A stretch of 64,000 bases of DNA from Prorocentrum cordatum (taxonomy: Eukaryota > Sar > Dinophyceae > Prorocentrales > Prorocentraceae). Positions 26,969 to 54,789 of this stretch are shown one piece after another (the stretch's first letter is position 1; each line of letters starts with the position of its first letter). The position numbers were made by a program, and so were the translations under genes. The stretch spans positions 476,524 through 540,523 of the forward strand of contig CAUYUJ010004758.1 in assembly GCA_963575745.1 (NCBI GenBank), written 5' to 3'. Below the pieces are notes generated by a model. That model searched no databases. It had not been told where the DNA came from and saw nothing but the letters and a program-made list of their open reading frames with translations.

Positions 26969-27412
26969 TAGATAGAAGGAGCATGTCGGTGAGGATCTAC
27001 TGCGGACAGCTAAACGCCACGCCATAAAAGTGCTGATAATACAATGCGACGTTCTTCCCTCCTCCCTCCTCCTCCACCTCCAAGCCGCCGTCCCGGCCCG
27101 AGGCTTTTGGGTGCAGGTATCCAGGATACCTGCGAAGCCTCGCGGGACTCGGCGGCCATACGCGCTCGCCCGCGCCGCCCTCGCTGGTGGCGTGCGGGCC
27201 GGCCGTGCTGCTGTGCTGTGGCGTGCGCCGCCCCCAGGGTGGGCGGGCGCACGACGGCGCGGGCGCCCGCAGTGCGCAGGGCGCGGCGCCGGCTGCGCGT
27301 GCGCGAGCCCGCCTGGCATAGGCGCGCTCGCGAGCGGCGCACGCAGTCGCGCACCTTGCTGCGCGTCGCCGCGGCAGCGGCGAGGTTGCGCGTGCACCAC
27401 AGCAGCGGGATC

Positions 27413-29182: not shown

Positions 29183-29188
29183 TGCGAC

Positions 29189-38139: not shown

Positions 38140-38435
38140 GTGCTCTGTTGCGCACGGCTGCTGTGGTGCACACAGGCATCATGGTGTACACAGGCGCTGT
38201 AGTGCACGCAGGCATTGTGGTGTACACTGGTGCTGTGTTGCACACGGCTGATGTGGTGTACGCAGGCGCTGTGGTGTACACAAGCGTTGTGGTGCCCGCA
38301 GGCACTGTGGCACACACTGTCGCTGTGTTGCACGCGGCTGCTGTGGTGTACACAGGCGGTGTGGTGTACACAGGCGCTGTGGTGCACGCAGGCACTCTGT
38401 ACACAGGCGCTGTGGTGCAGATCGTCACCTACATG
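38140..38435 (-). repeat. 18-bp minisatellite, right copy (inverted)
   Basis: Units such as GTACACAGGCGCTGTGGT are the reverse complement of those at 26655-26968. The right edge CAGATCGTCACCTACATGCT matches, inverted, the left edge of the other copy. The edge identity shows both are copies of one repeat that includes unique flanking sequence. Confidence 0.85.
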
Positions 38436-38832: not shown

Positions 38833-38962
38833 TTAGTTGTTCGTCCTAAACGGTTGGACCCCGCCCTCCCCAGTCGGCTTGGGTTTTCTCCTCTCCCTGC
38901 TCCTGCCTCTGCCTGCCCTTCTCTCTCCCTCTCTCCCGCTCAAGCCTTCGGGGCTCAAAGCC
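38833..38962 (+). repeat. Split direct repeat A1
   Basis: Begins TTAGTTGTTCGTCCTAAACG, followed by a pyrimidine-rich stretch, and ends GGGGCTCAAAGCC. It differs from A2 at a single base (38842). It probably includes the element's promoter and 5' leader; the gag-like ATG lies 55 bases beyond it. Confidence 0.92.
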
Positions 38963-39017
38963 TTGGAGCCGACCTCAGGAGGTCTGGGCGCCCTCGGCGC
39001 CCGGAAGCGTGCGTGCC

Positions 39018-42000
39018 ATGGCTGCCCGGCGCCCGGCGCTGGCAGGCTCTGCACGCGGGCTGATCGCGCTGACCGCCAGCGCGACCGCCTACGACTGGCG
39101 CGGGCCGCTCAGCACTGCTGTTGCCCGCGCCGGATGGGGCCGCCCGGCTGTGGCCCAGGAGGTCCCGTTCGGGTACACCGTGCCGTACTACGACGACTCC
39201 GAGTACGGCATGGAGATCGGCGAGCACGAGGAGGAGGGTGGGGCTGCAGGCAGCCCCCAGGCGCCGCCCGACAGCGGGCCGCCGGGAGCGCCGCCCCCGC
39301 CCCCCGCCCATGCCGCCGGAGGAGTCGAGAACGGCAGCCACCCCACCGACGACCCGCGTGGCGAGGAGTCCTGGGTGGGCGGCTGGGGTGTCTGGGCGCT
39401 GGGATGGAAGCCCCTGCGCGAGGGCACCTGGGCCTGGCGCCTGAGCGGCATGGGCGGGGTCGCCTACGAGAAGCTGGACAGCCTCGGGAGCGCCTTCTCA
39501 ACCCATGCTGAGACGGGCTGGCTGACCAAGGACGGCGGATGGTTCTTCTACGCCCTCGAGAAGCTGGGCCTGACGGTCTTTGGGGCCGCCTGGCCTGCCG
39601 TGGCATGGACGTTCATCTTCTTGGCTTTCCCGGCGGTGCTTGCCTTTCTTACTCATGTCTGTCGTACTCTACTGGCCCCCTGCGCAGCTGCCCTCTGGCT
39701 GATTGGTCTACTGGCGCGGTGCTCCAAGTGCCGCCGGCGAGAGCCTGGCGACGCAGCTGCCGAAAGGTACCTGCCGCCGGCTCCGCCCGCCCTTACCCAG
39801 ATCAACTGGATGGGGCCAGAGACCGGGCCAGCTACGACCACCGAGTATTACAGCAAGAAAGTGAAGGGTCGTGGAACTGGGAGGCGACCCAATGACGTGC
39901 TGGTTAAGATCGACGACCACGTAGCCAGGCTGAAGATCGACCTCGCGGAGCCCAAGCGGATCGACCGGAGGGGCCTTTGGATAGACTACCTGGGCGTGAA
40001 AGGTGCGAGTTCACGCGCACTTCGCCAGAAGTTGGAGTCGCTCGAGGGCCGTTCCATCCACCTGTGCCGCAACATGGTCTGTCGAGATCAACCCGGGGAA
40101 GTTCATTGCAAAGAATGCGCCGCGCTGGATTCCGAGGCGATTGTGGACATCGGCTCCCGCGCCAGGTTCACCTCCTGCCGCGGCATCTTCCTGATTTGGC
40201 GGACCTTCGCCGATCTGGGGAGAGGCACCTGGGATATCATCGTGTTCCTCTACTGCATCCTCTCCTGCGGTTGCTCTTCCTGCTGCCGGCGACGCCGCCG
40301 TCGCAAGACAGGCGCTGCGGAGCCAGGCGTTGCAGGGAGCATCGCAGAGGTCCTAGATCAGGAATCAGAGTCAGAGGTGGAGGCCGAGGACAAACCATGC
40401 GAGGCCGTTCGGGTGGGCATCGTACTTCGTGGCGGCGCCCGCCCCTTGGCTCCCGACGGTTGCCGTGGCGCCGCGGAAGCCGAGCCGACCACCCTGCTCT
40501 TCGAGGACGGACAGGCGTCAGACCTCCCGCCACCCAGCGACGGGCGGAACTCTTTCGCCCATCTCTGCGCCCATCATGCCCAGGTCTACCGAGCCGCTCG
40601 GTACCGTGACAAGTGTTCGCAAGTGACTTGTTACCGTCAGGCAGTCGGCAACGCAGAGGGCGTGCCGCTCTGCCTTCTTCACCTGGGTGGGGAAGCAAGC
40701 AGAGCAGTGCAGGCAGCTGCAGCAGTCCAGGGCCGCGGGTTCCTCTCGAGTCTGGGCCTGAGGCGCCGGGCAGTCCGCAGTCGCAGTCCACGGGCGCGCG
40801 AGCAGGGCGCACCAGGCACTGCAACTCCCCCCGCAGACGGAGTCCGAGGACCCGAGAGCCACCGCGGGCATGCAGCCCCTGGGCTACACCCACGCGATGC
40901 ATCAGCCTCACCAAGAGGTCCACCTGTTGGTGTCCGGTTCGAGGCGTCACCTTCTCCGAGGGTGCCTCTCCCGCGGGATGCCAGCCCTACCCCAGACGAG
41001 GAGGCCGAGCAGGGTGACTACCTCGTATTGCGGGTGCGGGTGCATTGGGCCGCCGGCCCGCAGTGGGTCATATTCTTGGGGAAATCCAGATCCGGAGGAG
41101 GGCCCACTGGAGATGGCAGCATGACCGTGGTAGACGTGGAGGAGCCGCGCTGCAAGGACCACTCCGCAGAGGGCCAGGAGAACATCTGCTTCACCCTCAA
41201 GACCGCGGGGATCGAGTATGCTCCCGTCGCTAGCGACCAGGGAAAGCTCCCCGCCGGCTATCTCGAAGAGCTGTTGCATCATCCTCCACTCGGAGCCGAG
41301 GAGATGGGGATCGGCGTGCACGGCGTCGTCGTGAGCAACGCCATGTGGGAGAAGCTGCGCCCTTGGAACGGGGTCCCCGTGGGCGGGAAGACCAAGAGGA
41401 TCGGCCGCCCTCAGTGGGCTCAGCTTTGGGCCCGTGGGGACTTGCTTGTGTACCGACATCCAGTGGGCATTCCTGGCGACGCCCATGGCGTGCCGCAGCC
41501 CACCTCGGACGAGATGGACGCGCAGCTCAAGATGCACTGGGCGAGGCTTGACCGCAGCAGCTCCCCCAAGCCCCCTTTCGGCGTCGGGTGGGGTCTGGGC
41601 GAGGGAGGTGATCCAGCCCCCTCAGCCCCCCGCCGCTCTTCCCGCAGCCCCGCAGGGAAGGCGCATGAAGAGGGGAGCACCGGAGAGGCCATGCTGGGGC
41701 TGTACCTCGCGGCCCATGAGGAAGGGTCGGACGACGCCTCGGCGCTGCAGAGCGTGGCAGCAGGGTACGATGAAGATGTCGCCGTAGTCTTGGAGCACCT
41801 CATCAAGTACACCCAGCGCCTCATGCGCAGCAGCGGAGCCGAAGAGCGGGCCAAGTACCAGGTGCACATCGACAGGTGGGAGAAAACGCTGGAGCGCGTT
41901 CGAACCGAAAAAGACGAAGGTGTGAACCCGCCACTCGCCAGCGGCCTCTTGAAGCTAGACGCCGAGCGCAGGCCCGACACCAGCCAGGAACCCAGCCAAC

Positions 42001-43106
42001 CTGGAGCCCCCCCTGGGCTAGATGCAGCAGCGAGTGCTCCACCCCTGCCGCCGCCGGCCACCCCGCCTGGCGTGCGCGTACCAGGAGCTACTCGCCTTTC
42101 CCCCCCGGGCTTGATGCCCGGCCTCGTTCCGAACTTCGGGCAGATGTTCACCAACCGGAGCGCCTACGGACATGGAGGACTGGTCAAAACCCCTGGGCAA
42201 CCTGATCGTGGGTATGCCGCGGGAGCTGGGGAGGGCGAACCATCGGCCGGCTTCACCACCTACGCACAAGTCCTCCAGAATGGCCAAGAGCAGCAGCACC
42301 TGGACAACATGCGGCTGCTGCAGGCGGTGGACAGCCTCCGCAGGTCCGGCGAGGAGGAGAAGGTGGCGCAGCGGGGCACCCTCGGTGCCATCGGGCGTGC
42401 CGAGGAGCTGGACGTGTACCTGGCGCGGGGCTGCGACACCCTCGACGTGGAGGTCTGCGGCACCCTGACCGGGCGGGAGTTGTTCCATGGCCTCAAACGC
42501 GCCTGCGAGCACGCGAAGCACGTGATGCAGGCGGTGAACTGGCCGACGACGGTGACGAACAGGATGGCGCACGGCATTGCCGCCTTCTGTTGGGGAGGAC
42601 GGGGCCACAAGGATCTGGCCGAGTGGTCGATCTCAGTGGCTGACTTTCCCCATTGCAAAGCAGAGGTGTTCGACGCTTACACCATGCCCACCACGTGCAA
42701 GCTCGAACCGCGCCCCCGGCACCCAGTCGTCTTCTCCCAGTGGGTGAGGCAGGCCGAGAACGCCATCACCGTCTTCGGGCTGGTCTACGGGCGGATGCAC
42801 GAGCCCGAGAGGCGCCGGGCCCTGGAGACCCTGCGCCTCGCCTACGAGGAGGACGACGTGGCCTTTCCCGCTGATTACGTGTACAGCCTTTGGGAAGAGC
42901 TCGCCGCCACCTGGTGCGAACAGCTTCGGGAGAAGCGGAGGGAGGTATGCCGCATCCTGGGCCTCACCAACCCGCGCCGGGAGGACATCAAGACCATCGC
43001 CCTCGCTCCCACGGGGCCGTCCGGAAGTGCGTGGCTAACATTCCCGAACGTATACGACCTCGACGCGCCGGACGGGTACTACCAGGTGGTATGCGTCCCA
43101 CGCTAG
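39018..43106 (+). CDS. Gag-like ORF1 with membrane segments and Cys/His-rich regions
   Basis: Start chosen at the first in-frame ATG. No enzyme signature. Features in order: an acidic, Pro-rich N-terminus; hydrophobic segments at about residues 195-238 (two helices around FIFLAFPAVLAFL and LLAPCAAALWLIGLL) followed by CSKCRRRE; a Cys-rich patch (LCRNMVCRDQPGEVHC); another hydrophobic segment WDIIVFLYCILSCGC ending in a Cys/Arg run; a His/Cys patch (LCAHHAQVY to CLLHLGG); low-complexity linkers; and a helical C-terminal domain (about 1040-1362) that may be the capsid-like part. Membrane segments are not usual in retrotransposon gag and suggest envelope-like or membrane-assembly functions. It ends at a TAG beyond which the same frame remains open. 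About 1362 aa. Confidence 0.65.
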   Translation: MAARRPALAGSARGLIALTASATAYDWRGPLSTAVARAGWGRPAVAQEVPFGYTVPYYDDSEYGMEIGEHEEEGGAAGSPQAPPDSGPPGAPPPPPAHAAGGVENGSHPTDDPRGEESWVGGWGVWALGWKPLREGTWAWRLSGMGGVAYEKLDSLGSAFSTHAETGWLTKDGGWFFYALEKLGLTVFGAAWPAVAWTFIFLAFPAVLAFLTHVCRTLLAPCAAALWLIGLLARCSKCRRREPGDAAAERYLPPAPPALTQINWMGPETGPATTTEYYSKKVKGRGTGRRPNDVLVKIDDHVARLKIDLAEPKRIDRRGLWIDYLGVKGASSRALRQKLESLEGRSIHLCRNMVCRDQPGEVHCKECAALDSEAIVDIGSRARFTSCRGIFLIWRTFADLGRGTWDIIVFLYCILSCGCSSCCRRRRRRKTGAAEPGVAGSIAEVLDQESESEVEAEDKPCEAVRVGIVLRGGARPLAPDGCRGAAEAEPTTLLFEDGQASDLPPPSDGRNSFAHLCAHHAQVYRAARYRDKCSQVTCYRQAVGNAEGVPLCLLHLGGEASRAVQAAAAVQGRGFLSSLGLRRRAVRSRSPRAREQGAPGTATPPADGVRGPESHRGHAAPGLHPRDASASPRGPPVGVRFEASPSPRVPLPRDASPTPDEEAEQGDYLVLRVRVHWAAGPQWVIFLGKSRSGGGPTGDGSMTVVDVEEPRCKDHSAEGQENICFTLKTAGIEYAPVASDQGKLPAGYLEELLHHPPLGAEEMGIGVHGVVVSNAMWEKLRPWNGVPVGGKTKRIGRPQWAQLWARGDLLVYRHPVGIPGDAHGVPQPTSDEMDAQLKMHWARLDRSSSPKPPFGVGWGLGEGGDPAPSAPRRSSRSPAGKAHEEGSTGEAMLGLYLAAHEEGSDDASALQSVAAGYDEDVAVVLEHLIKYTQRLMRSSGAEERAKYQVHIDRWEKTLERVRTEKDEGVNPPLASGLLKLDAERRPDTSQEPSQPGAPPGLDAAASAPPLPPPATPPGVRVPGATRLSPPGLMPGLVPNFGQMFTNRSAYGHGGLVKTPGQPDRGYAAGAGEGEPSAGFTTYAQVLQNGQEQQHLDNMRLLQAVDSLRRSGEEEKVAQRGTLGAIGRAEELDVYLARGCDTLDVEVCGTLTGRELFHGLKRACEHAKHVMQAVNWPTTVTNRMAHGIAAFCWGGRGHKDLAEWSISVADFPHCKAEVFDAYTMPTTCKLEPRPRHPVVFSQWVRQAENAITVFGLVYGRMHEPERRRALETLRLAYEEDDVAFPADYVYSLWEELAATWCEQLREKRREVCRILGLTNPRREDIKTIALAPTGPSGSAWLTFPNVYDLDAPDGYYQVVCVPR

Positions 43107-46100
43107 GCCCGGCGGCTGCAGAGGTTCCTCCGCCAGAACCTCCATGCTGGCCCCTCGAGGACCCCCAAGGCCGGGAAAGCCGACGACCACGCCCCAGCCG
43201 ATCAAGAAGCCCCCGCAGGAGCTGGGCCAGGCACAGGGAAGGCAGGGGCCGCCGTCAAGAAGGCTGCTGCCAAGAAGCGGCCCGCCGCCCGGGCCTACCC
43301 AGCGGGCAAGGCGCTGACCTCCAGCGAGATCGGGCGCTCGGTCAAGCACGCCCCCCGTGACAAGAACGGGAAGGTCATTTGCTGGGATGCTTGCACCTGG
43401 GCCGGTTGCCCCAAGGCGGCGGGGACCTGCGCCCACTCCCACGAGGCCATCAAGGGGCTTGGCAGCCTTGACTGGACCGTGCAGGCGCAGCTCATCAGGC
43501 GCGGCGGCCTGAAGTCGGGAGCTAAGGTCGACCCCGCTTCGGTCGACGGGCGAGTAGCCCAGCTCTGGGCCCAGGCTAAGGCCGAAGCGGACAGCAAAAG
43601 GGCTGGCGGAAGTGCCGGGGAGGGCCCCGGGGCAACTTCGGGAGGCAGCCGAGCGGGAGGCTCGCCGGCTGTCTGGTCCCCCCCTGCCGCCTTCGACGAG
43701 ATCCAGACCACCGCCCTCGAGGAGGAGCTCAGACAGGCCGTTCAAGGCCCCGAGGAAGACTGGCTGCTGGACGCCCACGCCCACGCGCCCGCAGTAGAGG
43801 GGACTGGCGAGACGACGCACCCAGCCGCCCTCGAAAGATGGAACATCATCGAGAAGATCTTGGAGAGCGGGACCCTCGCGACCCTGGGCGACATCAGCGA
43901 CTACCTGCACTCGCACGTCCTGGCCAGGCTCGCACGCGCCAGCTCAGAAGGCAGCTCCCTGAGCCTGGAAGAGATACTGCTGGAGGCAACTCGTGACGGG
44001 GGGCCAACCCTCGCCGAGGAAGCAGGACGAGCCCTCGACAAGTTGGGATCAAAGGCGGGGAGGAGCAGCACGCAGGACCTCAGCATTGGAGGTGCCACCT
44101 GGGACGAAGACGCTGGGGTGGGCCGCGGGAAGCTCACGGTGCAGGACCAGGAATGGGACTACCTTGACTTCCAGGACGAGCTCCAACCCGATGAAGAGAT
44201 GCGCACCCGACTCGGCCTCAAGGAGGGTGACGCAGAGCTCAGGCAGCGCCTGGTACTCCACATCGCAGCCGCCCTGCTCTGGGAGGACAAAGAGCCTGAC
44301 GCGCCGGCCGTGAAGGCCCTGGCTGCGCAGCTCCGCCGGGAGTTGTGGGATGGCGTCACCACCGCCTCCGCCGCGCTGGGGGACGCGCCCCCTTTCGTAT
44401 CGCCGCGTGAAGCCGAGCTCAGGATGCACTGCCACGACGTCCAGCACCCGCACCACGACAAGGACTTCAGGTGCATCGCGGTGTTCCCACTGAGTGCCCT
44501 CAACACGACCACCGTCCGGGTCTGGAGGATCAACCACTGGAACCAGCTCGAGATCGACTCCGTCCTGCCGACGCAGACCAGCGAGAAGGAGGTCCACGTC
44601 ATGATCCACCGAGGCCACATGCGGGTGCTCCGGCCGCCGGCCATCGGCAGCCAGGGACCCAACAGGCGGGGCCGGGCCTTTGGGGAGATCCTCAAGACCT
44701 GGACACTCGCTGGGAAGCCCGTCCGCGAGCTGCTCACGGTGGGCTGGGAGATGTACCTGGAGTCGGAGGAGGTTGCGGGGCCCGTGATACCCAGCCGGCC
44801 GCCTCCCTGCATGCACTGCAAGCGTATGCAACAGGCTCAGCTCCCGACACGTGAAGGCGCCGTCGGGAATCAGGAGCTCGAGGAGGAGGACTTCTCCGGC
44901 CTCGCGCCCCTCCTGCGCAGGCCAGCCTTCGCGTGGGGCATCCGCGCCCGCGAGATCTTCGCGGGCACTGGGAACTGGACAAAGGCGATGCGGGAAGCTG
45001 GACTCCAGACGGCCCCGTCCGTCGAGTACTTCCAGGATCCTTTGGCCCAGGCCGGGCCCCAGGAGGAGCACAACATCCTCGACCCCCAGGTGCGAGAAAG
45101 GCTTCTTCTCGACGCTGGAGCCGCGCCAGGCCCCGATGAGGCGAACGTCTACCAGCTGGCCCCACCATGTACGACCCATTCGGCTTGGTGCCTCAAGAAC
45201 GGCGGGACCCGCACGTTCGAGCACCCGGACGGCGACGGGACGGTCCAGGCGGAGATCGAGAGCAACATCATGACAGATTTCGCCGCCGACCTCTGCGAGC
45301 GCCTCGACGCCAACGATCGGGGGTGGATGCTCGAGAACACGGCCAGCGACGGGCGCTACCCGAATATTTGGGACAGGGCCAGGATCAAGCAGCTGCAGAA
45401 GCGCACAGGGGCACGGATCATCTCTGTCGCTATGTGCGAGTGGGGACCGGGGCCCCCAGAGGAGCCCGTGAAGAGACACCGCAAGCTGACGTTCTGGATG
45501 GTCTCGAAGGGCCTCTACCCCTGGGCGCTCTCTCTGGCGAGGCGCTGCACCAACCGGCACGAGCGCGTCGCCCTGGGAGGGCCTCTCCCCTACGACCTGA
45601 CCCAGACCCAGATCGACCACTACAACTCCTCCGGGCTTGCGCTCAGCCCGTCCGAGCAGAAGGACATCCTGAGCCTGACCAATCGGCTGGCCCTCGCAGG
45701 CGCGCAGGCCCAAGGTCTCGCCGTGGACGCCAAAGCCATGGAAACTCCGCAGCTCGGACCCGAGCTGCTGCGCCCGCTGAACGACCTCGTTGGCAAGCTG
45801 GGGCCCGAGAACTTCCACTGGAGCCGGGTCGAGCCACGCACCGGGAGGGCCTTCAAGGACCTCCCAGAGGGCACCATGGCCTTGTACTACGGGCGCGACC
45901 AGGCCGACAATTTCGTGGCCAAGATCTCACACCGGTCACCCCCACACCTGCACGGTGGAGGGCGCATCCCCAGCGGGGCCCCCCCTCTGGTCAAGGCCCT
46001 GCGGGAGGAGTTGAGCACCCTCGGCTTCCAGGTCGGTCAGCGTGGACTACGACGCACCCGCTACGCCGGCCAGTACCCGACGAGGCTGTGCGCTGCCTGG

Positions 46101-46529
46101 GCCGAGGTCGTCAAGGCTGCGGGGGCGGGGCCCCCCCATGCGAAGCTCCTGAAGAAGCTCGAGCCCATCGTCGCGACGAGGGCCGGGGACAAGATGGCGG
46201 CGGGGGCCGGCGACAAGGTTCACCTGGCGGACCCCCCCCCCTCTCTTTCGCTTCCAGGACGTGCCAGTCATGGAGAAAGAGGCGGAGGAAGACCATCCAG
46301 CAGGGCCCAAAGGATGGCAGTGCGCGAACAGGGGCAAGAAGAGGGGAGGGTGGAAGCGCAACAAGGCGAGGAAGAGAGACCCCGACCGAGGAGCACCACC
46401 ACCAGGCCCTGGAGGAAACGGTGGAGGCGACGAACCTGGGGGAGACGAAGGAGAAGAAGAGGAGGAAGAAGAGGAGAAGGAACCACCCAGGAGGGTCAAG
46501 AAGTCCAGGCAAGCCGAGCAGCAGGCTGA
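43107..46529 (+). CDS. ORF1 extension: CCCH finger and cytosine-methyltransferase-like domain
   Basis: Same frame as ORF1, separated only by TAG at 43104-43106. No in-frame ATG occurs for about 1.1 kb, so expression probably needs readthrough, splicing or a non-AUG start. Near 43378-43445 there is a C-x8-C-x6-C-x3-H finger (CWDACTWAGCPKAAGTCAHSH region). The methyltransferase-like domain is at 44930-45620: motif I FAGTGNWTKAMREAG, motif IV QLAPPCTTHSAW with Pro-Cys, motif VI WMLENTASDG, motif VIII-like KRHRKLTFWMVS. Chemistry inferred: SAM-dependent C5 cytosine methylation. A mixed helical region precedes it. The C-terminus is Arg/Glu-rich and overlaps the next frame. Confidence 0.65.
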   Translation, partial: ARRLQRFLRQNLHAGPSRTPKAGKADDHAPADQEAPAGAGPGTGKAGAAVKKAAAKKRPAARAYPAGKALTSSEIGRSVKHAPRDKNGKVICWDACTWAGCPKAAGTCAHSHEAIKGLGSLDWTVQAQLIRRGGLKSGAKVDPASVDGRVAQLWAQAKAEADSKRAGGSAGEGPGATSGGSRAGGSPAVWSPPAAFDEIQTTALEEELRQAVQGPEEDWLLDAHAHAPAVEGTGETTHPAALERWNIIEKILESGTLATLGDISDYLHSHVLARLARASSEGSSLSLEEILLEATRDGGPTLAEEAGRALDKLGSKAGRSSTQDLSIGGATWDEDAGVGRGKLTVQDQEWDYLDFQDELQPDEEMRTRLGLKEGDAELRQRLVLHIAAALLWEDKEPDAPAVKALAAQLRRELWDGVTTASAALGDAPPFVSPREAELRMHCHDVQHPHHDKDFRCIAVFPLSALNTTTVRVWRINHWNQLEIDSVLPTQTSEKEVHVMIHRGHMRVLRPPAIGSQGPNRRGRAFGEILKTWTLAGKPVRELLTVGWEMYLESEEVAGPVIPSRPPPCMHCKRMQQAQLPTREGAVGNQELEEEDFSGLAPLLRRPAFAWGIRAREIFAGTGNWTKAMREAGLQTAPSVEYFQDPLAQAGPQEEHNILDPQVRERLLLDAGAAPGPDEANVYQLAPPCTTHSAWCLKNGGTRTFEHPDGDGTVQAEIESNIMTDFAADLCERLDANDRGWMLENTASDGRYPNIWDRARIKQLQKRTGARIISVAMCEWGPGPPEEPVKRHRKLTFWMVSKGLYPWALSLARRCTNRHERVALGGPLPYDLTQTQIDHYNSSGLALSPSEQKDILSLTNRLALAGAQAQGLAVDAKAMETPQLGPELLRPLNDLVGKLGPENFHWSRVEPRTGRAFKDLPEGTMALYYGRDQADNFVAKISHRSPPHLHGGGRIPSGAPPLVKALREELSTLGFQVGQRGLRRTRYAGQYPTRLCAAWAEVVKAAGAGPPHAKLLKKLEPIVATRAGDKMAAGAGDKVHLADPPPSLSLPGRASHGERGGGRPSSRAQRMAVREQGQEEGRVEAQQGEEERPRPRSTTTRPWRKRWRRRTWGRRRRRRGGRRGEGTTQEGQEVQASRAAG

Positions 46530-49500
46530 CGAGCCAGTCAAGGTGCCCCTCCCGCAGCGGGGGGAACGATGGATACCGATCCCCGGGGCCCCCATGTACG
46601 CGCACGAGCTCCAGAGCGTCCTTATGACCTGCAGGTGGCTGCGCGACGACGTCCTTAGCCCCGAGGAGCTTCGCCTGTTCGTCTACACCGACGAAGGAGA
46701 CACTGCAGGAGCAGAAGGACCGCCTTTGGAAGACGATGATCGAGTCGAACCCGGGGAACGCCTCATCCTTCGGATCGGGAGGGAAGACATCGGGAATTGG
46801 GCGGCCTGGGCGCCACGCTGGATCAAGAGGGCTGTGGACGAGGAGCGTGAGGAGGCGCCGTGGCACCGCGACGAGGCCACCCCCGCTTCCCACCGCAGCG
46901 TCACGCTGAGGATCGCCGACCGAGCCAGCTCCCAAGGTTTTGGCAGCCTGGAGCTTGGCGTCGTCTGGAACAGGCGGATTCCCCCACCGCACTCGGGAGG
47001 GAAGCGTTTCCAGCTGGCCGCTGCTCAGGCCCTCCAGAGGCAGAGCCGCGAGGCACCCGCCGGGGGGTCCAGCAGCGGCGGCAGCTCAGCCGACAGCATC
47101 AAGCTGGAGAGCATAAGGAGGAAGCTCGAGGCCGCCAGAGCCGCCGAGGTAGGTGTCCTGGAGGAGGAGGAGAAGCGCATCAAGGAGCTGCAGATACAGC
47201 TGGCAGAGGCAAAGGAACGCCGCCGGGCCCGTCGTGCGAGGGATGCCGGCAAGCGCGAGGCGGAGCAGGCGCGAGCTGGGCATCCCCGCCGGGCCAGCTC
47301 GGAACCCCCCAGCGGGCAGAGTGCGGCCACCCCGCTTGACCCAGCCTGGGAGGACGAGACCCCCCTGCCCTCGGCCATCCTGGATGGGGAGAACAAGTGC
47401 CACGAAGCGGAGTGCATCCTGAACAACCTGCTCGGGGTCTCGGCCGACGATCCCACAGGACCCGATCGGAGGAGGAAAGCCCGCGAACTCCTGATCGAGG
47501 GCATCAGCTCCATGTTCGAGGATCTACCGCGGAGCTGGACCGGTACTCCCTACGAGGAGCAGGGCGAGATCGCGAGCGAGTACGTCGACATCCTCGAGAG
47601 GCTGACCCGCAAGATGGTGAAGGCAGGGGAGCTGGACGACATCCCCGCGAAGAAGCGCCAGAGGATCGTGCACGAAAAGGCGGAGGAGGAACCTCCGAGC
47701 GACGACGCGGACTCCGCCGAGAGCTCGGAGGACGAGGTTGTGGAGAAGCCGTGCGCGAGGACCAAGGAGGGACCGGACCCACCCATCCCAGAGGACCCAG
47801 ATCCTCTGAGCCTCTGGCCTGGGCAAGCAGAAGCAGCCAGGCGGAGCAGGGAGGAGCCCTTTCAGAGCCCCCCTGGGGCGAGCGGCAGCGGAGGCCCTGC
47901 CCCCGCTGCGGGCGCAAGGCCCCCGCCGAGCGCACCGCCGCCGCCCGAGGCCCTGGAGGCCCCCTCAGACCCAGCCCGGCATCAGAAGAGCAGACTCCCC
48001 ACCACGATCCCCCAGAAGGCAGCACCTACGAGGCGAAGCCGCTCGGCAGAGACGGTCGTGGAAGCAGCCAGGCGGGCCGCAGGTAGGTCGACGACCTCCA
48101 GCGGAGACCCACCTACTGGGAGGGCAGACGCCGGCAGCACAGGAACGCCCGAGGAGGCGCCCACACTCAGGCCCAGGCCAAGATCGTCGGGTGCCCAGCT
48201 GCGCGCCACCTCCAAGGGGAAGCCCTCGCAGCCCAGGCCCCGCCAGGACGAGCCAGCAGGGCCACTCGCGCCCCCGGACCACGCAGTCCGGCCACTGCTG
48301 AGGCCGCCGGGGTGGCGCCCACTCCTCCCAGGGCAGATCTGCAGACCACCAGGCATGCCGCCGATGATGCCACCCCCCTGGCCGTCTCCCCCACGGGGAG
48401 GCCGCTGTGGGGGGCCCCCTTTGGGGGAGGCGCCGGCGGCACCAAGCGGAGGGAAGGCGCAGGAGGAGGCGCGCGCCTACGTCAAGTGGTGCGCGGACCA
48501 CCCTACCTTCCAGCCCGAGAAGGTGCCAGAAGTCGTGAAGCGGGGCAACTCACTCCTCCGTCTCGCCGGCAGCATAGAGAGAGCTGCCGAGCTGCTGAAG
48601 CACGCGCGAGAGGAGATCTACGGGAACCCGTTGGGCGGCGTGCTCCAGGAAGACGTGCAGAAGTCCTTGGACCCGCATCGCGCCGCCTACCTCCGGGCAA
48701 TGGCCACCGGAGGGGTACCTGTGCGGCGCACGGAGGAGCGGGCGCGCACGCAGGCCAAGTCGCACTCCTCGGCGGTGGACCACGCGCTGGAGATGTTCGA
48801 GAAAGCCTGGAAGGACAGAGGCTACGGCGTCGTCCTCTGGGCCTCGGACGAGGTCGAGGATGTGCTCGCCGCCTCGGCGTTGGTCGAGTCGCCCAGCGGG
48901 AGGGTTCCCAAGATGTTGCCGGATCGGACCATCTCGAAGGAGGGCCGGCCGATCCACGACATGCGCGCGGCCAACGCCTTCTCCCCGAAGGAGCAGCACC
49001 CGCCAGCTAAGCAGCCCCTCCACAGGGGGCTTGCTCGGCTCAGCCTCTGGTGGGAAGCGAGGCACCCGGGCGTCCAACAGGTGGTCGCAAAGCGCGACGT
49101 GGCCAGGGCCTTCAAGTGGCACCACCTGGAACCAGCTGCAGTGCCAGAGTTCGGGACGACGCTCCCGGGCAAGGAGGTCGGGGTGCCAGGACGAGTTATC
49201 CTGATCCACGGCGTGCTGGTTTTCGGCTGGGCCGGCAGCCCCGGCGAGTACATGGCGTTCGCCTGGGCGGCCAAGAGCGAGCACGAGAGGAGGAAGCCGC
49301 CGGCGCCCAGGATCAACGATGCCGTCAAGTACGCCTCCAAGTGGCTGATGGACGACGGAGTCGTCCTCGAACCGCTGGTGGGCCTCCGACCCTGGCTCTC
49401 GGCCGAGGAGCTCGACGGGGCCATGAAGCGGGTCTGGGGCCCGGACGCAGTCAACGAGGAGAAGCTGGACGTCGAGGGGGAGTTTGCCGCAGAGCAGCTG

Positions 49501-49920
49501 ATCTGGGGCCTCCACATGAACTTCGACACGAAGGTGGTTAGGCTCCCGGAACCCAAGTGCATCAAGGCCCAGTACTTGCTCGCCCTCCCGGAGCTTAGGG
49601 GATCAAGGCGGGTCCCCCTGAAGGTCGCCCAAGAGCTGCGAGGCTGCGCCCAGTTTTGGGCTTCAGCACAGCCTGCCCTCCGCCCCGAGCTACCTGCCCT
49701 GGACCGGCTCCTGAGCAGCGGGACGAGCTGGGCAGAGCCGAAGGGTGCGCCTGAAGAGGTCGAGCACGCCTGGGAGGAGTGGGACGCGTCGGTGGGTTTT
49801 CTGAGGATGCTCTTCGACGTCCCCGAAGCTTGGAGCACGACTTTCCAGGCCAGCTTCACGCAAGCCCTTTCAGTGTGCGAACGCCTCGCACTGCCGGGAA
49901 CAGCACGTACCACGCGGTAG
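46270..49920 (+). CDS. Reverse transcriptase polyprotein of the tyrosine-recombinase element
   Basis: In the +1 frame relative to the preceding segment, overlapping its end by ~260 bp. The first in-frame ATG is 46270, but the frame is open upstream to a C10 run, so fusion by frameshift is possible. N-terminal half: Gly/Glu/Lys-rich, a compact domain (RLFVYTDEGDTAG to RLILRIGRED), then a long Glu/Arg coiled coil (47100-47280) and a Pro-rich linker. The RT is at about 48780-49560: GRPIHDMRAANAF (fingers), motif A VAKRDVARAFKWH, motif B GWAGSPGEYMAFAWAA, motif C WLMDDGVVLEP with Asp-Asp intact. The DIRS-type RNase H should follow, but a TAG at 49918 interrupts it near its first catalytic strand. 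About 1216 aa. Confidence 0.75.
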   Translation: MEKEAEEDHPAGPKGWQCANRGKKRGGWKRNKARKRDPDRGAPPPGPGGNGGGDEPGGDEGEEEEEEEEKEPPRRVKKSRQAEQQADEPVKVPLPQRGERWIPIPGAPMYAHELQSVLMTCRWLRDDVLSPEELRLFVYTDEGDTAGAEGPPLEDDDRVEPGERLILRIGREDIGNWAAWAPRWIKRAVDEEREEAPWHRDEATPASHRSVTLRIADRASSQGFGSLELGVVWNRRIPPPHSGGKRFQLAAAQALQRQSREAPAGGSSSGGSSADSIKLESIRRKLEAARAAEVGVLEEEEKRIKELQIQLAEAKERRRARRARDAGKREAEQARAGHPRRASSEPPSGQSAATPLDPAWEDETPLPSAILDGENKCHEAECILNNLLGVSADDPTGPDRRRKARELLIEGISSMFEDLPRSWTGTPYEEQGEIASEYVDILERLTRKMVKAGELDDIPAKKRQRIVHEKAEEEPPSDDADSAESSEDEVVEKPCARTKEGPDPPIPEDPDPLSLWPGQAEAARRSREEPFQSPPGASGSGGPAPAAGARPPPSAPPPPEALEAPSDPARHQKSRLPTTIPQKAAPTRRSRSAETVVEAARRAAGRSTTSSGDPPTGRADAGSTGTPEEAPTLRPRPRSSGAQLRATSKGKPSQPRPRQDEPAGPLAPPDHAVRPLLRPPGWRPLLPGQICRPPGMPPMMPPPWPSPPRGGRCGGPPLGEAPAAPSGGKAQEEARAYVKWCADHPTFQPEKVPEVVKRGNSLLRLAGSIERAAELLKHAREEIYGNPLGGVLQEDVQKSLDPHRAAYLRAMATGGVPVRRTEERARTQAKSHSSAVDHALEMFEKAWKDRGYGVVLWASDEVEDVLAASALVESPSGRVPKMLPDRTISKEGRPIHDMRAANAFSPKEQHPPAKQPLHRGLARLSLWWEARHPGVQQVVAKRDVARAFKWHHLEPAAVPEFGTTLPGKEVGVPGRVILIHGVLVFGWAGSPGEYMAFAWAAKSEHERRKPPAPRINDAVKYASKWLMDDGVVLEPLVGLRPWLSAEELDGAMKRVWGPDAVNEEKLDVEGEFAAEQLIWGLHMNFDTKVVRLPEPKCIKAQYLLALPELRGSRRVPLKVAQELRGCAQFWASAQPALRPELPALDRLLSSGTSWAEPKGAPEEVEHAWEEWDASVGFLRMLFDVPEAWSTTFQASFTQALSVCERLALPGTARTTR

Positions 49921-50340
49921 ACCGGTGGCGATGCCACCACTTCCTCGATTGGCGCCATCGACTGGGGGAGCGCAACCGCAGGAGGAGCCACGCCGACGCC
50001 GGAGTACATGGCCGCGGACGCCGGACCTCTGCTCGAGGCCCTGAGTCAAGCGGTCGGGGGCGAGAGCAGCGAGGAGGACTGGATCATCGCGGTGGTTGAG
50101 CTGTTGGCGGTGGTCGCGTTGGCCACGAAGCAGGGCTCGAAGTGGGAAGGCGAGCTGGTGTTCTATGTCACAGACAACCAGAATGTGAAGGCATGGCTTA
50201 CCAAGAAAGCCCCGAGAACGCCCTCGCCCGCCACCTGATCCGTTTAGTGGAGAGGATCGAAGCCATGCACGGGTGCCGCATCGTCTCGTTCTTTGTTAGG
50301 ACCTACCACAACGAAGTGGCCGACTGGCTTACCCGCGAGG
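49921..50340 (+). pseudogene. DIRS-type RNase H, split by a stop and a frameshift
   Basis: After the TAG the RT frame continues with GDATTSSIGAIDW (first catalytic Asp strand), VVELLAVVALATKQ (Glu helix) and VTDNQNVKAWLTK (Asp strand), then fails at 50238. The adjacent frame resumes with ENALARHLIRLVERI and ends RTYHNEVADWLTR, the final catalytic Asp with the Trp-Leu-Thr typical of DIRS elements. A one-base indel near 50205 reconciles both halves. All four acidic positions are therefore present in the DNA but not in one frame. Confidence 0.7.
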
Positions 50341-52856
50341 AGGTCAAGAAGGTTCACGACACGCTGGCCACTTCAGGCTGGAAGCGCCTCGAGCCCCCCG
50401 CAGCCTGGGGCCAGATGCTGGAGGACGCCAAAGAGCGCCTTCTCAGACTCCCAGGGGAGACGGGTCCCGTGGCCGAGGCTGCCCTTCGACACCGAGCACT
50501 TCAGCGAAGGCACGGGCTGCCGAGGCCTCTCCCGCTCCGCGGAAAACTGGGCGGAGAAGCGGGGGGCCTCATCAACCCGCGCACGAAGGCCTTCAAGCGC
50601 CTCGGTGGCTCAGAGCCCGAGGAGAACCAGAAAGCAGGATGGCTCATGGCGTCGCTGTCTCTGGACCCCAAGGGTAGAGAGATGGAGGCCTTCCTCGTTG
50701 CAGCAACCCGGGAGAGCCCTGAAGTGGTGGTCGTGGACGCCCCGACCGGGGTGGATACGGCCAGGTTCGAGAAGGCACTCAAGCAGCTGGGCTACATGAT
50801 CTCGAAGTTCGAGGTGGTCTGCACGCACCACGGGGATGCCACCACGCGGACCAGGCAGGTGCTCACGGGCGGGCGTCGGAAAGCGGGAGTGGGCCTGGCG
50901 TGCATTAACATGCCGCTGGCCTGCTCGCGAGCTGCCAGCGTCAAGCCGCTCCTGGACAAGGGAAAGGACCGCCTCTGGTTCGACCAGCAGGGCGAAGTGT
51001 CGTGGGACCCCCGCATCCAGTCCACCAGCGACCCCCTCCTCCTCAAGCCAGTCGGGCACCTCAAGAAGGATGGAGTGAAGCACCTGATCTACAGTGAGGA
51101 GGGGCCGGTGGGCACCATTCGTTGGCCGGGGGCAGAACCCCAAGGACCCGGAGCAACGCTCCTCCGCGTCACCGGAGGAGGCGGGGGCACGGTCCGTGCC
51201 CTGACACCCCAAGAGGTTTGGCGAGTGCAGGGAGGGACCAACGACGAGTGGACCCACCTGCGGACCCAGGGCTCCGCGGAGGACGAGCTCTTGAAGGGCG
51301 CAGCCAGGGCGCTCCCACCGAGGACCGCGGAGGCGGTGCTGGCCGCGGTGGCGGAAGCACTCGACAGCACCAGTACGCAGCGCGCCGGAGTGTGCCATGA
51401 TCCAGAGGAGCAGGCCGCGTGGGATGCTACCAAGCGCTGGTTCCGCGCTTGGGCACAGGCACCAGATCAGCCCGCACTAGCGCTGGCAGCGGAGGATGAG
51501 GCGAGGGCAGGAGGGGCGCTCACTGATGAGTCGATGCACAAGAATCGCCGGCGTGCCCAGGCAGTCCGCTTCAAGATGATCGATGGGGACACGCTCATCG
51601 GACCCCGCGAGGCTCCGGCCGCAGAGAAGGTTAAGCTGGACAAGAGTGTTACTCGCTCGAAGAGCCCTCGTAAAAAGAGCCCCCGACGTGCCAAAGAGAT
51701 GCCAGCGACCAACCTGGTGAGGCCGCAGGCGCTGGGCGTAGCGCGGAAGAACAACTACCCCGGGAAGGAGCTCGCCCCCGCCGGCCGTGCTGAGCCTGGC
51801 GGGGCCAACTACGCCAGCTGGTTCGCGCAGCAGAAGATGGAGGCCATGCTGCAGAAACTCAGCGAAGGCACGAGGGCAGGCTACGAGGGAGGATGGCGGC
51901 TCTGGGTAGCCGCGCGCCAGGCGCAGGGGCTTAGCCCTCGGCTCCCAGGACGCGATCGCGAGGGGCGCCTGGCCGACGAGGAGGCGCTCATCAACTTCGC
52001 CGTCCTCCTAGCGCGGGTCGTCGGGAGGACCGAGGGGGCCATCAAGCAGAAGCTCTTCGCGGTGCGCTACGCCCACCTGGTGGCCGGCTACTCGGATCCA
52101 TTGCTCCACAGGGGTCGCCTCTGGAGCACCCTGGCAGGGCTAAAACGCCGGCAGGGGCCCGAGACCAAGCGGAAGAAGCCCGTCACGCCAGCCATGCTCG
52201 AGTGGCTCCGCGGCTTTCTCCAGCAAGAAGCCAAGCTCCCCGAGGAGGATGCGGTGGTCATCTGGGCGGCCATTGTGACAGCGTTCTTCTTCCTCCTGAG
52301 GGCTTCAGAGTACCTCCTCCAGGACGGGCGCTCGCGGTCCTTCGAGCGCGTGCTGCGCGGGGAGGACGTAGAGCCCAAGAAGGACGGGAAGCGAGTGGCC
52401 AGCTTCCAGGACGCCGACGAGATGGTGATCTACATCAAGGGCAGCAAGACGGACCAGCTCAACGTCGGGACGGTGAGGAACCACTACCGCGCCGGCACGA
52501 CGCTCTGCCCTATCGCGGCGATGGAGCGGCTCCAGGCTCACCATCCCCAGCGGATAAAGGGCACCGAGGAACGGCTGCCCCTTTTCCGCTGGGCGTCAGG
52601 TACACCGATTCGCAGGGCAGAGGTGCAGCACTTCCTGACGGTCGCGGGGCTGGCCGCCGGCCTCTCTAGGGAGGAAATCGGCAGCCATTCCCTGAGGATC
52701 GGCGGGGCGACTGCAATGTACCACGTGACCGAGGACCTCTCCCGGGCGCGCCGGTTCGGGCGCTGGCAGTCGGACGCGTTCCACGGCTACCTGTGGGAGT
52801 CGCACGAGCCGATGAAGGGCATCTCCGGCAAGATGCCAGGGACACCTCCTCGCTGA
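50193..52856 (+). CDS. RNase H end, methyltransferase-like C-terminal half and tyrosine recombinase
   Basis: First in-frame ATG 50193; the frame is open upstream. Begins with the end of RNase H. At 50715-51370 it resembles the second half of a C5 methyltransferase: VVVVDAPTG (motif VI place), LKQLGYMISKF, HHGDATTRTRQVL (motif VIII), VRALTPQEVWRVQGG (motif IX) and ARALPPRTAEAV (motif X-like); motifs I and IV are absent. A basic linker (KSPRKKSPRR) leads to the recombinase: a helical core-binding domain (51830-52150), then catalytic Arg in LLRASEYL (52299), Lys in YIKGSKTDQ, HSLRIGGAT (His 52686, Arg 52695), RFGRWQS (Trp 52764) and YLWESH (Tyr 52788, the nucleophile). All key residues are present. 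It integrates circular cDNA by strand exchange. Confidence 0.85.
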   Translation: MAYQESPENALARHLIRLVERIEAMHGCRIVSFFVRTYHNEVADWLTREEVKKVHDTLATSGWKRLEPPAAWGQMLEDAKERLLRLPGETGPVAEAALRHRALQRRHGLPRPLPLRGKLGGEAGGLINPRTKAFKRLGGSEPEENQKAGWLMASLSLDPKGREMEAFLVAATRESPEVVVVDAPTGVDTARFEKALKQLGYMISKFEVVCTHHGDATTRTRQVLTGGRRKAGVGLACINMPLACSRAASVKPLLDKGKDRLWFDQQGEVSWDPRIQSTSDPLLLKPVGHLKKDGVKHLIYSEEGPVGTIRWPGAEPQGPGATLLRVTGGGGGTVRALTPQEVWRVQGGTNDEWTHLRTQGSAEDELLKGAARALPPRTAEAVLAAVAEALDSTSTQRAGVCHDPEEQAAWDATKRWFRAWAQAPDQPALALAAEDEARAGGALTDESMHKNRRRAQAVRFKMIDGDTLIGPREAPAAEKVKLDKSVTRSKSPRKKSPRRAKEMPATNLVRPQALGVARKNNYPGKELAPAGRAEPGGANYASWFAQQKMEAMLQKLSEGTRAGYEGGWRLWVAARQAQGLSPRLPGRDREGRLADEEALINFAVLLARVVGRTEGAIKQKLFAVRYAHLVAGYSDPLLHRGRLWSTLAGLKRRQGPETKRKKPVTPAMLEWLRGFLQQEAKLPEEDAVVIWAAIVTAFFFLLRASEYLLQDGRSRSFERVLRGEDVEPKKDGKRVASFQDADEMVIYIKGSKTDQLNVGTVRNHYRAGTTLCPIAAMERLQAHHPQRIKGTEERLPLFRWASGTPIRRAEVQHFLTVAGLAAGLSREEIGSHSLRIGGATAMYHVTEDLSRARRFGRWQSDAFHGYLWESHEPMKGISGKMPGTPPR

Positions 52857-53827
52857 CCAACCCGGCGAAGGACAGCGCCCCCAGCAGAGCTGCCGCCGGC
52901 GCTGAGAGCGCCAGGCGTGAGAGCCCATGAGGGGGACGCAGCGGGCGCCGCCGGTGCTTGCACACCTGGCGCGCGCCCAACCCAAGCCGCCGGCCTGCCC
53001 GCCGTGCGTGCTTGAGTGCAATCACCAACCACCTGCGCCGCCGGCGGATTAGCCGCGCGCTCGCAGAGTACACCCACCCGTGCCTTCGGCACTGGCCAAT
53101 ACCTCAGCGCGAACGTATGCGCACAGGCTTGTCCGTCCGGGCCCCACCAGTGCCTGGGATACTGTGGGTCCCCTTGCAGCCGTTGGACAAGGGCCATGCT
53201 GGAGCCTGCCTGGCACGCCGGCTCTCTATGCCAAGCCTGGTCGTGGCGGGCACACTGACGTCGGCTTAAGATACAGTAGCTGGCAATCTGACGGCTCAGT
53301 GTGGCCGCAGCACCAGAATTCACGCGCAGGCACAGGCCCGCGCCCCAGCGCCGGCCCGGGGAACCCCCTCTGTCAGGGGCCGGACCCTGCCCGCCCCGTG
53401 CACTTGTGGAGGGGCGGGGGGCCGGGAGATCTGGAGGCCGCGGCGCGGACGGGGGTGCCAAGCACCGGCCTGTGCCGAGCGCCAGCGATAGCATCTTCGG
53501 GCCTCAGCCCGAGGTCAGGCTCCGCCGGCAATCAAGGCACCGGCGCGAGCCCAAAGCCTAACCTCGCGGAGAACAGCCGCGCGCGCCGGCATCAGTTGCC
53601 TGGCGGCAGTCGGCAGACAGGAGGGCCAGTGGGGCCCCACGCGCACGCCGGCGCATGCGCCAGGCGGTGCGCGACTCAGAGCATAGACGGTGCCGGCAGC
53701 ACAGAGCCTGGCACCCAGTTTTGGTGACGCCCATCAGGGCGCCCACACAGCACGCCGGCGCGTAGAATCCGCCAGGCGGCCAGTGTGCAGGGCCACTGGC
53801 AGCAGCACCAGTATCATTAGAACAAAG
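52857..53827. other. 3' internal non-coding region of the recombinase element with repeated GCCGGC hairpins
   Basis: No coding domain. From about 53340 a GCCGGC or ACCGGC core recurs, and from ~53580 imperfect hairpins with GCGCCGGC and GCCTGGCG or CGCCAGGCGG arms appear roughly every 50 bp (near 53595, 53655, 53705, 53765). They resemble the stronger hairpins in B1 and B2 and may be packaging, replication or recombinase-binding structures. Confidence 0.55.
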
Positions 53828-54055
53828 GCGGCGAGGCCCGCTTCGCGTGGCGGAAGGAGGGACCCGCCCGGCGTATCAACGCCGGCGGGAGGAGCATGCG
53901 GCCAGCGCAGCAGCAAAATGGGGGGGGCTGCACCGCTGCCGCCATCGTCGTCGTCGTCTCCTGAGAGCCCGCTTCTGACCGCTTCGCGGCTGGCACGTCC
54001 CGCGGCCTTACAGCAGGCCGCGCTTTCGCTAGCGCCGTACTGTGGGGGCGGGGTC
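53828..54055 (+). repeat. Split direct repeat B1
   Basis: Begins GCGGCGAGGCCCGCTTCGCG and ends TGTGGGGGCGGGGTC, immediately before A2. It carries the hairpin at 53863-53889. Differs from B2 by a few substitutions and small indels in homopolymer or triplet runs. Confidence 0.9.
53863..53889 (+). other. Hairpin in B1
   Basis: Arms CCCGCCCGGCGT and ACGCCGGCGGG around loop ATCA. The B2 hairpin has C/G in place of the loop-closing T/A pair, so pairing is preserved. Confidence 0.75.
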
Positions 54056-54185
54056 TTAGTTGTTTGTCCTAAACGGTTGGACCCCGCCCTCCCCAGTCGG
54101 CTTGGGTTTTCTCCTCTCCCTGCTCCTGCCTCTGCCTGCCCTTCTCTCTCCCTCTCTCCCGCTCAAGCCTTCGGGGCTCAAAGCC
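54056..54185 (+). repeat. Split direct repeat A2
   Basis: Matches A1 over all 130 bases with one difference. Joined to B1 without a gap, as expected for split direct repeats. Confidence 0.92.
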
Positions 54186-54254
54186 CTCCCAGGGCCCGAA
54201 TGGGCCCTCTTTTGCCCGCCCACCCTGGGCTTTGCCTTGGTGTCTAACGGCACC

Positions 54255-54482
54255 GCGGCGAGGCCCGCTTCGCGTGGCGGAAGGAGGGACCCGCCCGGCG
54301 CCACCAGCGCCGGCGGGAGGAGCGTGCGGCCAGCGCAGCAGCAAAATGGGGGGGGTGCTGCACCGCTGCCGCCATCATCATCGTCTCCTGAGGGCCCGCT
54401 TCTGACCGCTTCGCGGCTGGCACGTCCCGCGGCCTTACAGCAGGCCGCGCTTTCGCTAGCGCCGTACTTTGGGGGCGGGGTC
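54255..54482 (+). repeat. Split direct repeat B2
   Basis: Copy of B1 at the right end of the element, with GTCGTGAAGG marking the divergence point from B1. Defines the right boundary. Confidence 0.9.
54290..54317 (+). other. Hairpin in B2
   Basis: Arms CCCGCCCGGCGC and GCGCCGGCGGG around loop CACCA, equivalent in position to the B1 hairpin. Confidence 0.75.
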
Positions 54483-54519
54483 GTGAAGGCGGGGATCAGA
54501 GCAACATGCCCGTGCCAAA

Positions 54520-54725
54520 AACATCACCCAGACCAAGAATACAAAAGGCCAAAAAACAAAAAACACAAATAGCAACCGCAAAAAAAAACACCAAAAAACG
54601 CAAAAAAAAAAAACAAAAAAAAAAACAAAAAAAACAAAAAAAAAAAAAAAGAAAAGCAAGGAACAATAAAACCGCAAAGACCCAACAAAAAAAAAAAAAC
54701 AAAAGAAAAAAAAAACCGCAGGCAA
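54520..54725. repeat. A-rich block
   Basis: Runs of A up to 14 long broken by single C or G fill about 200 bp, in sharp contrast with the GC-rich surroundings. It lies about 40 bp outside B2. It could be a decayed poly-A tail of another retroelement. Confidence 0.8.
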
Positions 54726-54789
54726 ATGTACGAATCGGAAACGTGAGCGACGCGTCGGAGATATCGGGACCGCCTGGACATGCGTGAAG

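Follow-up and report, generated by a model that had tools for sequence, protein, structure and literature searches.

A 64,000-nucleotide stretch of DNA from the dinoflagellate Prorocentrum cordatum (contig CAUYUJ010004758.1; the whole stretch is called the window below) carries at positions 38833-54482 a 15.65-kb element that is very probably a tyrosine-recombinase retrotransposon of the order DIRS, of the split-direct-repeat type. The element is delimited by two pairs of repeats, A and B, all in direct orientation and in the order A1-coding-B1A2-B2, and long plus-strand open frames fill the interval from A1 to B1. Taken as a whole, the evidence leaves us highly confident that the window holds a degenerate copy of a multicopy, giant split-direct-repeat element of this order. 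Two modules of its coding region that resemble parts of cytosine-C5 methyltransferases (C5 enzymes) flank a predicted reverse transcriptase (RT) and ribonuclease H (RNase H), with the mt module upstream and the X module downstream.

Repeats, ends and genomic copies

The repeats of the element are as follows.

38833-38962, + strand: A1, left terminal split direct repeat, 130 base pairs (bp); the element starts TTAGTTGTT
53828-54055, + strand: B1, inner B copy adjoining A2, 228 bp
54056-54185, + strand: A2, inner A copy, 130 bp
54186-54254, + strand: spacer between A2 and B2, 69 bp, at least 96% conserved among 19 other 3' ends examined
54255-54482, + strand: B2, right terminal repeat, 228 bp; GGGGTC is the element end

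Comparison of the repeats within the window bore out the positions, the order A1-open reading frames (ORFs)-B1-A2-B2 and the contact of B1 with A2 given in the original prediction, which had been made from the sequence letters. Its description of the repeats as exact holds for A, with one mismatch in 130 bases between A1 and A2 (pair E 3e-63, far past chance), and fails for B, where B1 and B2 are 93.9% identical with gaps and 89% ungapped (pair E 1e-97). B1 directly abuts A2, 69 bp lie between A2 and B2, and the B1-B2 distance is 427 bp. Further A or B matches within the window were at most 47 bp long and mainly simple-sequence.

The genome (4,128,499,153 bases in 21,875 contigs) was searched with the A repeat, and the best 40 of 409 candidates were scored, two of them being the repeats of the window. 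The 38 non-window matches, in 37 stretches, were examined; all copy counts are lower bounds, and older copies are under-represented because copies were picked by likeness to the window A. Eighteen of the matches are A1 followed by the 5' interior and 20 are A2 within B-A-spacer-B, and the genome check suggested with the original prediction thus found no solitary A repeat, that is, one without the internal region, among these 38 best-scoring matches of the 409 candidates. All 18 other left ends that matched start exactly at the first A base (TTAG in 17, TTCG in one), and of 19 right ends elsewhere, 16 finish at the final base of B (GGGGTC in 14, GAGGTC in two); the remaining three differ in the final 2-3 bases, and two of these three are duplicates. 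The outer boundaries proposed earlier are therefore true ends of the element. The outer flanks were unrelated among copies, duplicated insertions excepted.

The A1-A2 spacing was 15,125, 15,169, 15,181 and 15,212 bp in four other copies, 15,223 bp in the window and 16,720 bp in a sixth copy. These five other copies align along the whole window element at 93.4-97.3% identity, one of them with a 1.5-kb insertion near its start. When the genome was searched with the recombinase domain, 2,451 candidates came up, of which at least 121 were scored, with identities of 89-100%. The element is one of many copies of a multicopy dinoflagellate family. Among named proteins, the nearest come from P. cordatum.

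No target duplication of more than 2 bp was visible by eye in nine copies with both ends. Of these nine, two or three are embedded in simple repeats and allow no judgement, and for three the pairing of the ends, which are 23-36 kb apart, is assumed. At the B1/A2 joint, the window and 18 of 19 other copies read GGGGTC/TTAG, the sequence that results when the outer ends are joined head to tail and hence what an element-derived circle would carry. The distance between B1 and B2 was 0.019 within a copy versus 0.039 between copies, and none of 10,000 re-pairings gave a value as low. This test used 15 of the 20 three-prime ends, with the first pair only of the tandem end L020; L013, L026 and L030, which have the same B-A-B as L010, L023 and L029, and L037 and L040, in which B1 is cut, were left out. 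Of 30 B repeats, 13 had their own partner as nearest relative, 10 had a B of the other class and seven a B of the same class. The within-copy likeness agrees with a cycle in which one template would be copied each time.

The 3' end L020 (G000:C3312:67307-70263) is a tandem B-A-spacer-B-A-spacer-B, possibly made by unequal exchange or by template jumping in reverse transcription. The members of the identical B-A-B end pairs L010/L013, L023/L026 and L029/L030 are found either on separate contigs or on a single contig with 34 kb between them, and their right flanks are identical or similar, suggesting segmental or assembly duplicates of single insertions.

Reading frames and the replication modules

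The open frames and the modules recognised in them are listed below; YR denotes the tyrosine recombinase.

38850-43106, + strand: open frame 1, N-terminal part of the polyprotein, ending in a TAG unique to the window copy among six
43107-46529, + strand: open frame 2, in the same frame as open frame 1, with a CCCH-like motif and the mt module
46153-49920, + strand: open frame 3, in a different frame, with an acidic linker and the RT
50100-52856, + strand: open frame 4, with the RNase H end, the X module and the YR
39612-39716 and 40182-40265, + strand: hydrophobic stretches of open frame 1, by eye
40614-40685, + strand: Cys/His cluster of open frame 1, by eye
about 42312-43100, + strand: gag-like region shared with relatives, by eye
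43380-43442, + strand: CCCH-like motif of open frame 2, by eye
44901-45845, + strand: mt module; motif I 44946-44972, motif IV with Cys 45156-45182, motif VI with Glu 45330-45362, R-x-R/K 45474-45503
49087-49119, 49222-49251 and 49345-49362, + strand: RT motifs A, B and C (LMDDGV) of open frame 3, from motif and order
49921-50330, + strand: RNase H-like region; D-E-D-D at 49921-49947, 50086-50115, 50164-50187 and 50298-50330
50499-51362, + strand: X module, without catalytic Cys; motif VI 50724-50750, VIII 50826-50858, IX 51192-51236, X 51288-51338
51846-52835, + strand: YR; R 52293-52313, K 52440-52457, HxxR 52680-52706, W and Y 52758-52790

The window copy is degenerate. It has in-frame stops at 43104 and 49918, the latter a TAG just ahead of the RNase H-like region, and its reading frame changes at three places, between 46130 and 46529, close to 50220 inside the RNase H-like region and close to 52835; owing to these breaks, RT and YR lie in different frames. 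Both stop sites are a sense codon in all five other copies compared, and the frame relations vary from copy to copy. Relatives of other origin cross the same junctions in single frames, from the gag-like region to mt in P0040 and P0051, from mt to RT in P0031, P0032 and P0040, and from RT through RNase H to YR in P0007 and P0008, so that RT, RNase H and recombinase stand together in one frame; the order mt-RT-RNase H-X is found within the single proteins P0031 and P0032. One other copy has open stretches of 2,322 and 1,888 codons in register across the overlap of two pieces, and open frames of 4,692 and 4,696 codons surround the recombinase in two of the 121 scored copies. Judging from the open-frame lengths and the relatives, unbroken members would carry a single polyprotein some 4,700 residues long.

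The key residues of a tyrosine recombinase (R, K, H-x-x-R, W and Y) noticed in the original prediction are indeed in place, and across 27 sequences R734, K783, H863, R866, W889 and Y897 (open frame 4 numbering) are either invariant or conserved to at least 90%. The domain matches PF00589 in the window at E 6e-4, below the curated cut-off, and in the relative P0001 at E 5e-9, above it; no integrase-core family was among the Pfam matches, and a longer profile compared with PDB reached Cre at a non-significant E of 0.55. The RT motifs of the window read DVARAFKW, FGWAGSPGEY and LMDDGV. In relatives these motifs and the D-E-D-D of the adjoining RNase H occur in order, and an alignment of 18 shows each of the four RNase H residues conserved to at least 90%. 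The lack of a Pfam match for the RT is not unexpected, because the RTs of Symbiodinium DIRS elements align poorly with Pfam (PMC5890265). The gag-like region and the CCCH-like motif are common to the relatives P0025, P0029, P0040 and P0051, the labels being given by eye. Among homologues of open frame 2, phmmer gave P0029 only, and a profile search yielded more. A search of Rfam gave no match. In a search for relatives in viral contigs, 26 stretches fit a pattern and none was confirmed.

Two methyltransferase-like modules

Alignments of mt (the window and 11 relatives) and of X (the window and 26) were compared with two C5 reference profiles, the first made of E. coli Dcm and six phage enzymes and the second of the same set plus nine of 20 fetched PF00145 loci from the same genome. 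In these one-against-one comparisons, to which the E-values refer, mt reached probabilities of 91 and 87.5 (E 1.1e-6 and 3.6e-6) with profiles 1 and 2 over motifs I-VI, and X reached 88 and 94 (E 2.9e-6 and 9.3e-8) over motifs VI-IX and VI-X. The motif numbers given to mt and X follow the C5 methyltransferase numbering. The best of 30 column shuffles of the larger alignment gave 19.5 and 17.8, versus 51.5 and 62.5 for the real alignments, and profiles of the RT and YR gave probabilities below 1 against C5 methyltransferases. In comparisons of the modules with individual sequences, all eight E. coli controls, Dam included, scored below six of the seven C5 enzymes for mt (the exception being that of phage KP27) and below all seven for X, in one case barely. 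The scores of mt and X against E. coli Dam, 17.0 and 13.9, were at background; the Dam comparison covered mt and X, and the rest of the polyprotein was searched by Pfam.

The C5 motif set I, IV (Cys), VI (Glu), VIII, IX and X is not complete in either module. In mt, the Cys of motif IV and the Glu of motif VI are each present in 12 of 12 rows. X has no Cys motif, its motif VI Glu is replaced by Asp in 24 of the 25 lettered rows, and its motif IX Arg is kept in 27 of 27. Neither mt residues 150-300 nor X residues 1-60 had a C5 match of their own, and the X of relatives opens with a glycine-rich ELGxG that resembles a generic S-adenosylmethionine-binding motif. The two modules thus appear complementary, with a putative catalytic core upstream and a putative recognition part with motifs IX-X downstream.

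The ratio of non-synonymous to synonymous substitution (dN/dS), computed among six copies in 15 pairs, was 0.13 for the gag-like region, 0.13 for the CCCH region, 0.19 for mt, 0.20 for RT, 0.26 for X and 0.27 for YR; the 3' non-coding control, counted in the same manner, came to 0.62, and a 5' stretch that is coding in part came to 0.33. The mt and X modules are under purifying selection and about as constrained as RT and YR.

It is possible, and we propose it tentatively, that one C5 methyltransferase has been split across RT-RNase H, in which case the halves would assemble after cleavage of the polyprotein and their activity would be coupled to complementary DNA (cDNA) synthesis and recombination. 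The split C5 methyltransferases M.AquI and M.EcoHK31I and the DNMT3A-DNMT3L pair reportedly have the Cys in one partner and recognition or regulation in the other. These are separate polypeptides, whereas mt and X would share one polyprotein with RT and RNase H between them. Literature on SymbioDIRS, on dinoflagellate retrotransposon methyltransferases from 2019 onwards and on split cytosine methyltransferases gave, among the papers listed and with subscription journals mostly outside the scope, no paired halves and no giant single-frame element; for DIRS retrotransposons in Prorocentrum no paper was listed.

A number of results weigh against the interpretation given so far. The window copy is itself broken by two stops and three frame changes. 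The RT is recognised only by motif order, with nothing found in Pfam and, up to E 10, nothing in PDB; the open frame 4 profile of 27 sequences matched no PDB chain, recombinases included. No Pfam methylase was hit by either mt or X, with E allowed up to 10 and 5, the PDB matches of mt include no methyltransferase, and the best PDB match of X is a cytosine methyltransferase over the same stretch at a non-significant E of 0.21. Both dN/dS controls lie below 1, and the values are to be read as relative only. The 427 bp between B1 and B2 are short enough that gene conversion could equally homogenise them. A within-copy likeness is absent for A1 and A2 (1.44 versus 1.56 mismatches, with 4,670 of 10,000 re-pairings as low, in nine pairs), perhaps because A hardly varies.

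We give almost no credence to the view that chance has brought together unrelated repeats and coding parts, be it as A and B repeats of separate origin or as elements nested in one another: the left end does lie near an array of 18-bp repeats and the right end beside a low-complexity stretch, but the same neighbours recur at 38 of 38 other A repeats and five copies align over their full length. For the copies examined, this view was rejected. It is likewise highly improbable that the breaks seen in the window copy reflect programmed recoding of the kind that some retroelements use, by read-through of stops and by frameshifting. Some breaks do sit between modules, such as the TAG that follows the gag-like part and precedes the CCCH-like region, yet the sense codon at both stop sites in the five other copies, the frame relations that differ among copies and the existence of open frames near 4,700 codons all speak against it, and programmed recoding was rejected on this evidence. 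More weight attaches to the view that X descends from part of a methyltransferase but now helps the recombinase or the RT by binding DNA or as a scaffold, and that mt alone, perhaps inactive, is the methyltransferase; we consider this rather unlikely. The missing catalytic Cys motif and the Asp in place of the motif VI Glu would suit such a role, and an X-like stretch is kept, by eye, in KptA-bearing relatives (described below) whose frames start just upstream of the RT. Motifs IX-X, however, are unmatched in mt (residues 150-300) and kept in X, with its invariant Arg, and X is conserved under selection (0.26).

Relation to known systems and a proposed cycle

The order DIRS is marked by a tyrosine recombinase in place of a DDE integrase, by an RT with adjoining RNase H and by insertion that leaves no target duplication. 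The element has the first of these and, in the copies that can be judged, the third; for the second, its relatives have the RT motifs and the RNase H residues in order. The layout A1-ORFs-B1A2-B2 places the element with the split-direct-repeat subgroup (Ngaro, PAT, VIPER). The Ngaro/PAT layout and element type named in the original prediction agree with the same arrangement as printed in PMC8547959 and PMC4157794. Its contrast in length also stands, 15.65 kb against less than 6 kb for all DIRS1-like elements as of 2011 (PMC3266345) and about 6 kb for Ngaro (PMC8547959), and the additional enzymatic domains that it mentioned correspond, by profile comparison, to the two C5-methyltransferase-like modules. 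The term undescribed system was too strong, because dinoflagellate DIRS-type A-coding-B-A-B elements with a cytosine methyltransferase in Pol have been published (PMC5890265).

Ngaro elements, for instance those of Cafeteria burkhardae, are described as A1-[ORFs]-B1A2B2, about 6 kb long, with three ORFs and a Pfam-recognised RT (PMC8547959), and as being without a methyltransferase domain (PMC4157794). The split direct repeats and the recombinase recur in the present element, together with a gag-like region and a predicted RT and RNase H; the size and the lack of a methyltransferase domain set Ngaro apart. PAT-like elements combine split direct repeats with a methyltransferase domain beside RT and YR (PMC4157794), and the present element likewise has methyltransferase-like modules beside its predicted RT and its YR. 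In the DIRS class, the methyltransferase is said to be Dam-like (PMC5890265, PMC6338049), an adenine type, whereas mt and X match C5 enzymes and not E. coli Dam. The VIPER/TATE elements of kinetoplastids have A1 at the 5' end, B1-A2-B2 at the 3' end, and YR and RT/RNase H (PMC6681497). The repeat arrangement, the YR, the RT/RNase H predicted here and a protist host are points of likeness. The ORF order of VIPER/TATE is gag-YR-RT/RNase H, and these elements are not known to have a methyltransferase.

The closest published system is SymbioDIRS-Dnmt3 of Symbiodinium (de Mendoza et al., 2018), an A-coding-B-A-B element with Dnmt3 in the RT ORF and the recombinase in a separate ORF (PMC5890265). 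It is unlikely that the present element is an ordinary member of that group, in which case its Pol would contain a single intact Dnmt3 domain and the enzyme would not be split. Membership would account for the same layout and the same combination of RT, RNase H, tyrosine recombinase and cytosine methyltransferase in a dinoflagellate host, and for the remote Symbiodinium relatives P0049 and P0050. Against it, the published methyltransferases were counted via PF00145 (PMC5890265), which has no match in mt or X and no window match in the genome search (best 123 of 3,988 candidates); the Dnmt3 sits in the Pol ORF, and here two PF00145-negative, seemingly complementary modules flank RT-RNase H, mt with motifs I-VI and X with VI-X, neither of them complete; and the published recombinase has its own ORF, whereas RT to YR form one frame in P0007 and P0008. 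Compared with the published kind, the 15.65-kb size, the one giant frame and the two methyltransferase-like modules flanking RT-RNase H would be new. In the same genome, the best 123 PF00145 candidates scored, of 3,988 at first look, include recurring frame lengths of 402, 478 and 383 amino acids, which suggest several methyltransferase-bearing repeat families.

For the giant DIRS-order retrotransposon preferred here, a cycle of transcription, cleavage, circle formation, recombinase chemistry and methylation would fit what is read directly from the sequence, namely the anatomy, the fixed ends, the absence of a visible target duplication, the head-to-tail B1-A2 joint, the within-copy likeness of B1 and B2 and the measured selection on the modules. 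The whole element would be transcribed, and one polyprotein would be translated and probably then cleaved, in the order gag-like, CCCH-like, mt, RT, RNase H, X and tyrosine recombinase. RT and RNase H would make cDNA, and the internal B1-A2 joint would restore and bridge the outer ends, giving a circle with GGGGTC/TTAG. The recombinase, apparently of a bacterial type, would insert this circle with no target duplication. The methyltransferase modules may put 5-methylcytosine on the new DNA, which would then resemble the host genome.

In the papers cited above, about 6 kb or less is given for elements of the order, a size range that would be widened by a family of 15.65 kb whose frame runs to about 4,700 codons. 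Two putatively complementary modules under purifying selection suggest that methylation belongs to the replication cycle and is not a passing capture. This bears on the question, posed in PMC5890265, of why dinoflagellate retroelements acquire methyltransferases.

In a tree of 23 RT sequences, the mt-bearing relatives and the window stood apart from relatives that carry a Tpt1/KptA RNA 2'-phosphotransferase domain (support 99/94), the window branch being long and its placement uncertain. The domain, PF01885, was found in five of 18 members (best E 1.2e-28); P0041 has no KptA match, yet groups among the KptA-bearing relatives. In P0042, P0045, P0047, P0048 and P0050, PF01885 lies in RT-bearing polyproteins, ahead of the recombinase where that is reached. 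Such a domain could strip 2'-phosphates that block reverse transcription; among the papers listed in a search on KptA/Tpt1 with retrotransposons there was no account of it. A further recombinase-bearing relative, P0023, has a DnaJ domain near its C-terminal end.

Elsewhere in the window, overlapping long plus-strand frames at 27014-36052 perhaps represent an element of the long interspersed nuclear element type, with no RT found in Pfam; the last frame there (33122-36052) has a weak C2H2-finger match and, by eye, a methyltransferase-like motif, GGPPCETWS. The array of 18-bp repeats to the left of the giant element occupies 38142-38417, an A-rich, C-interrupted stretch lies just beyond its right end at 54517-54734, and arrays of 22-bp and 73-bp repeats follow farther to the right at 56803-57549.

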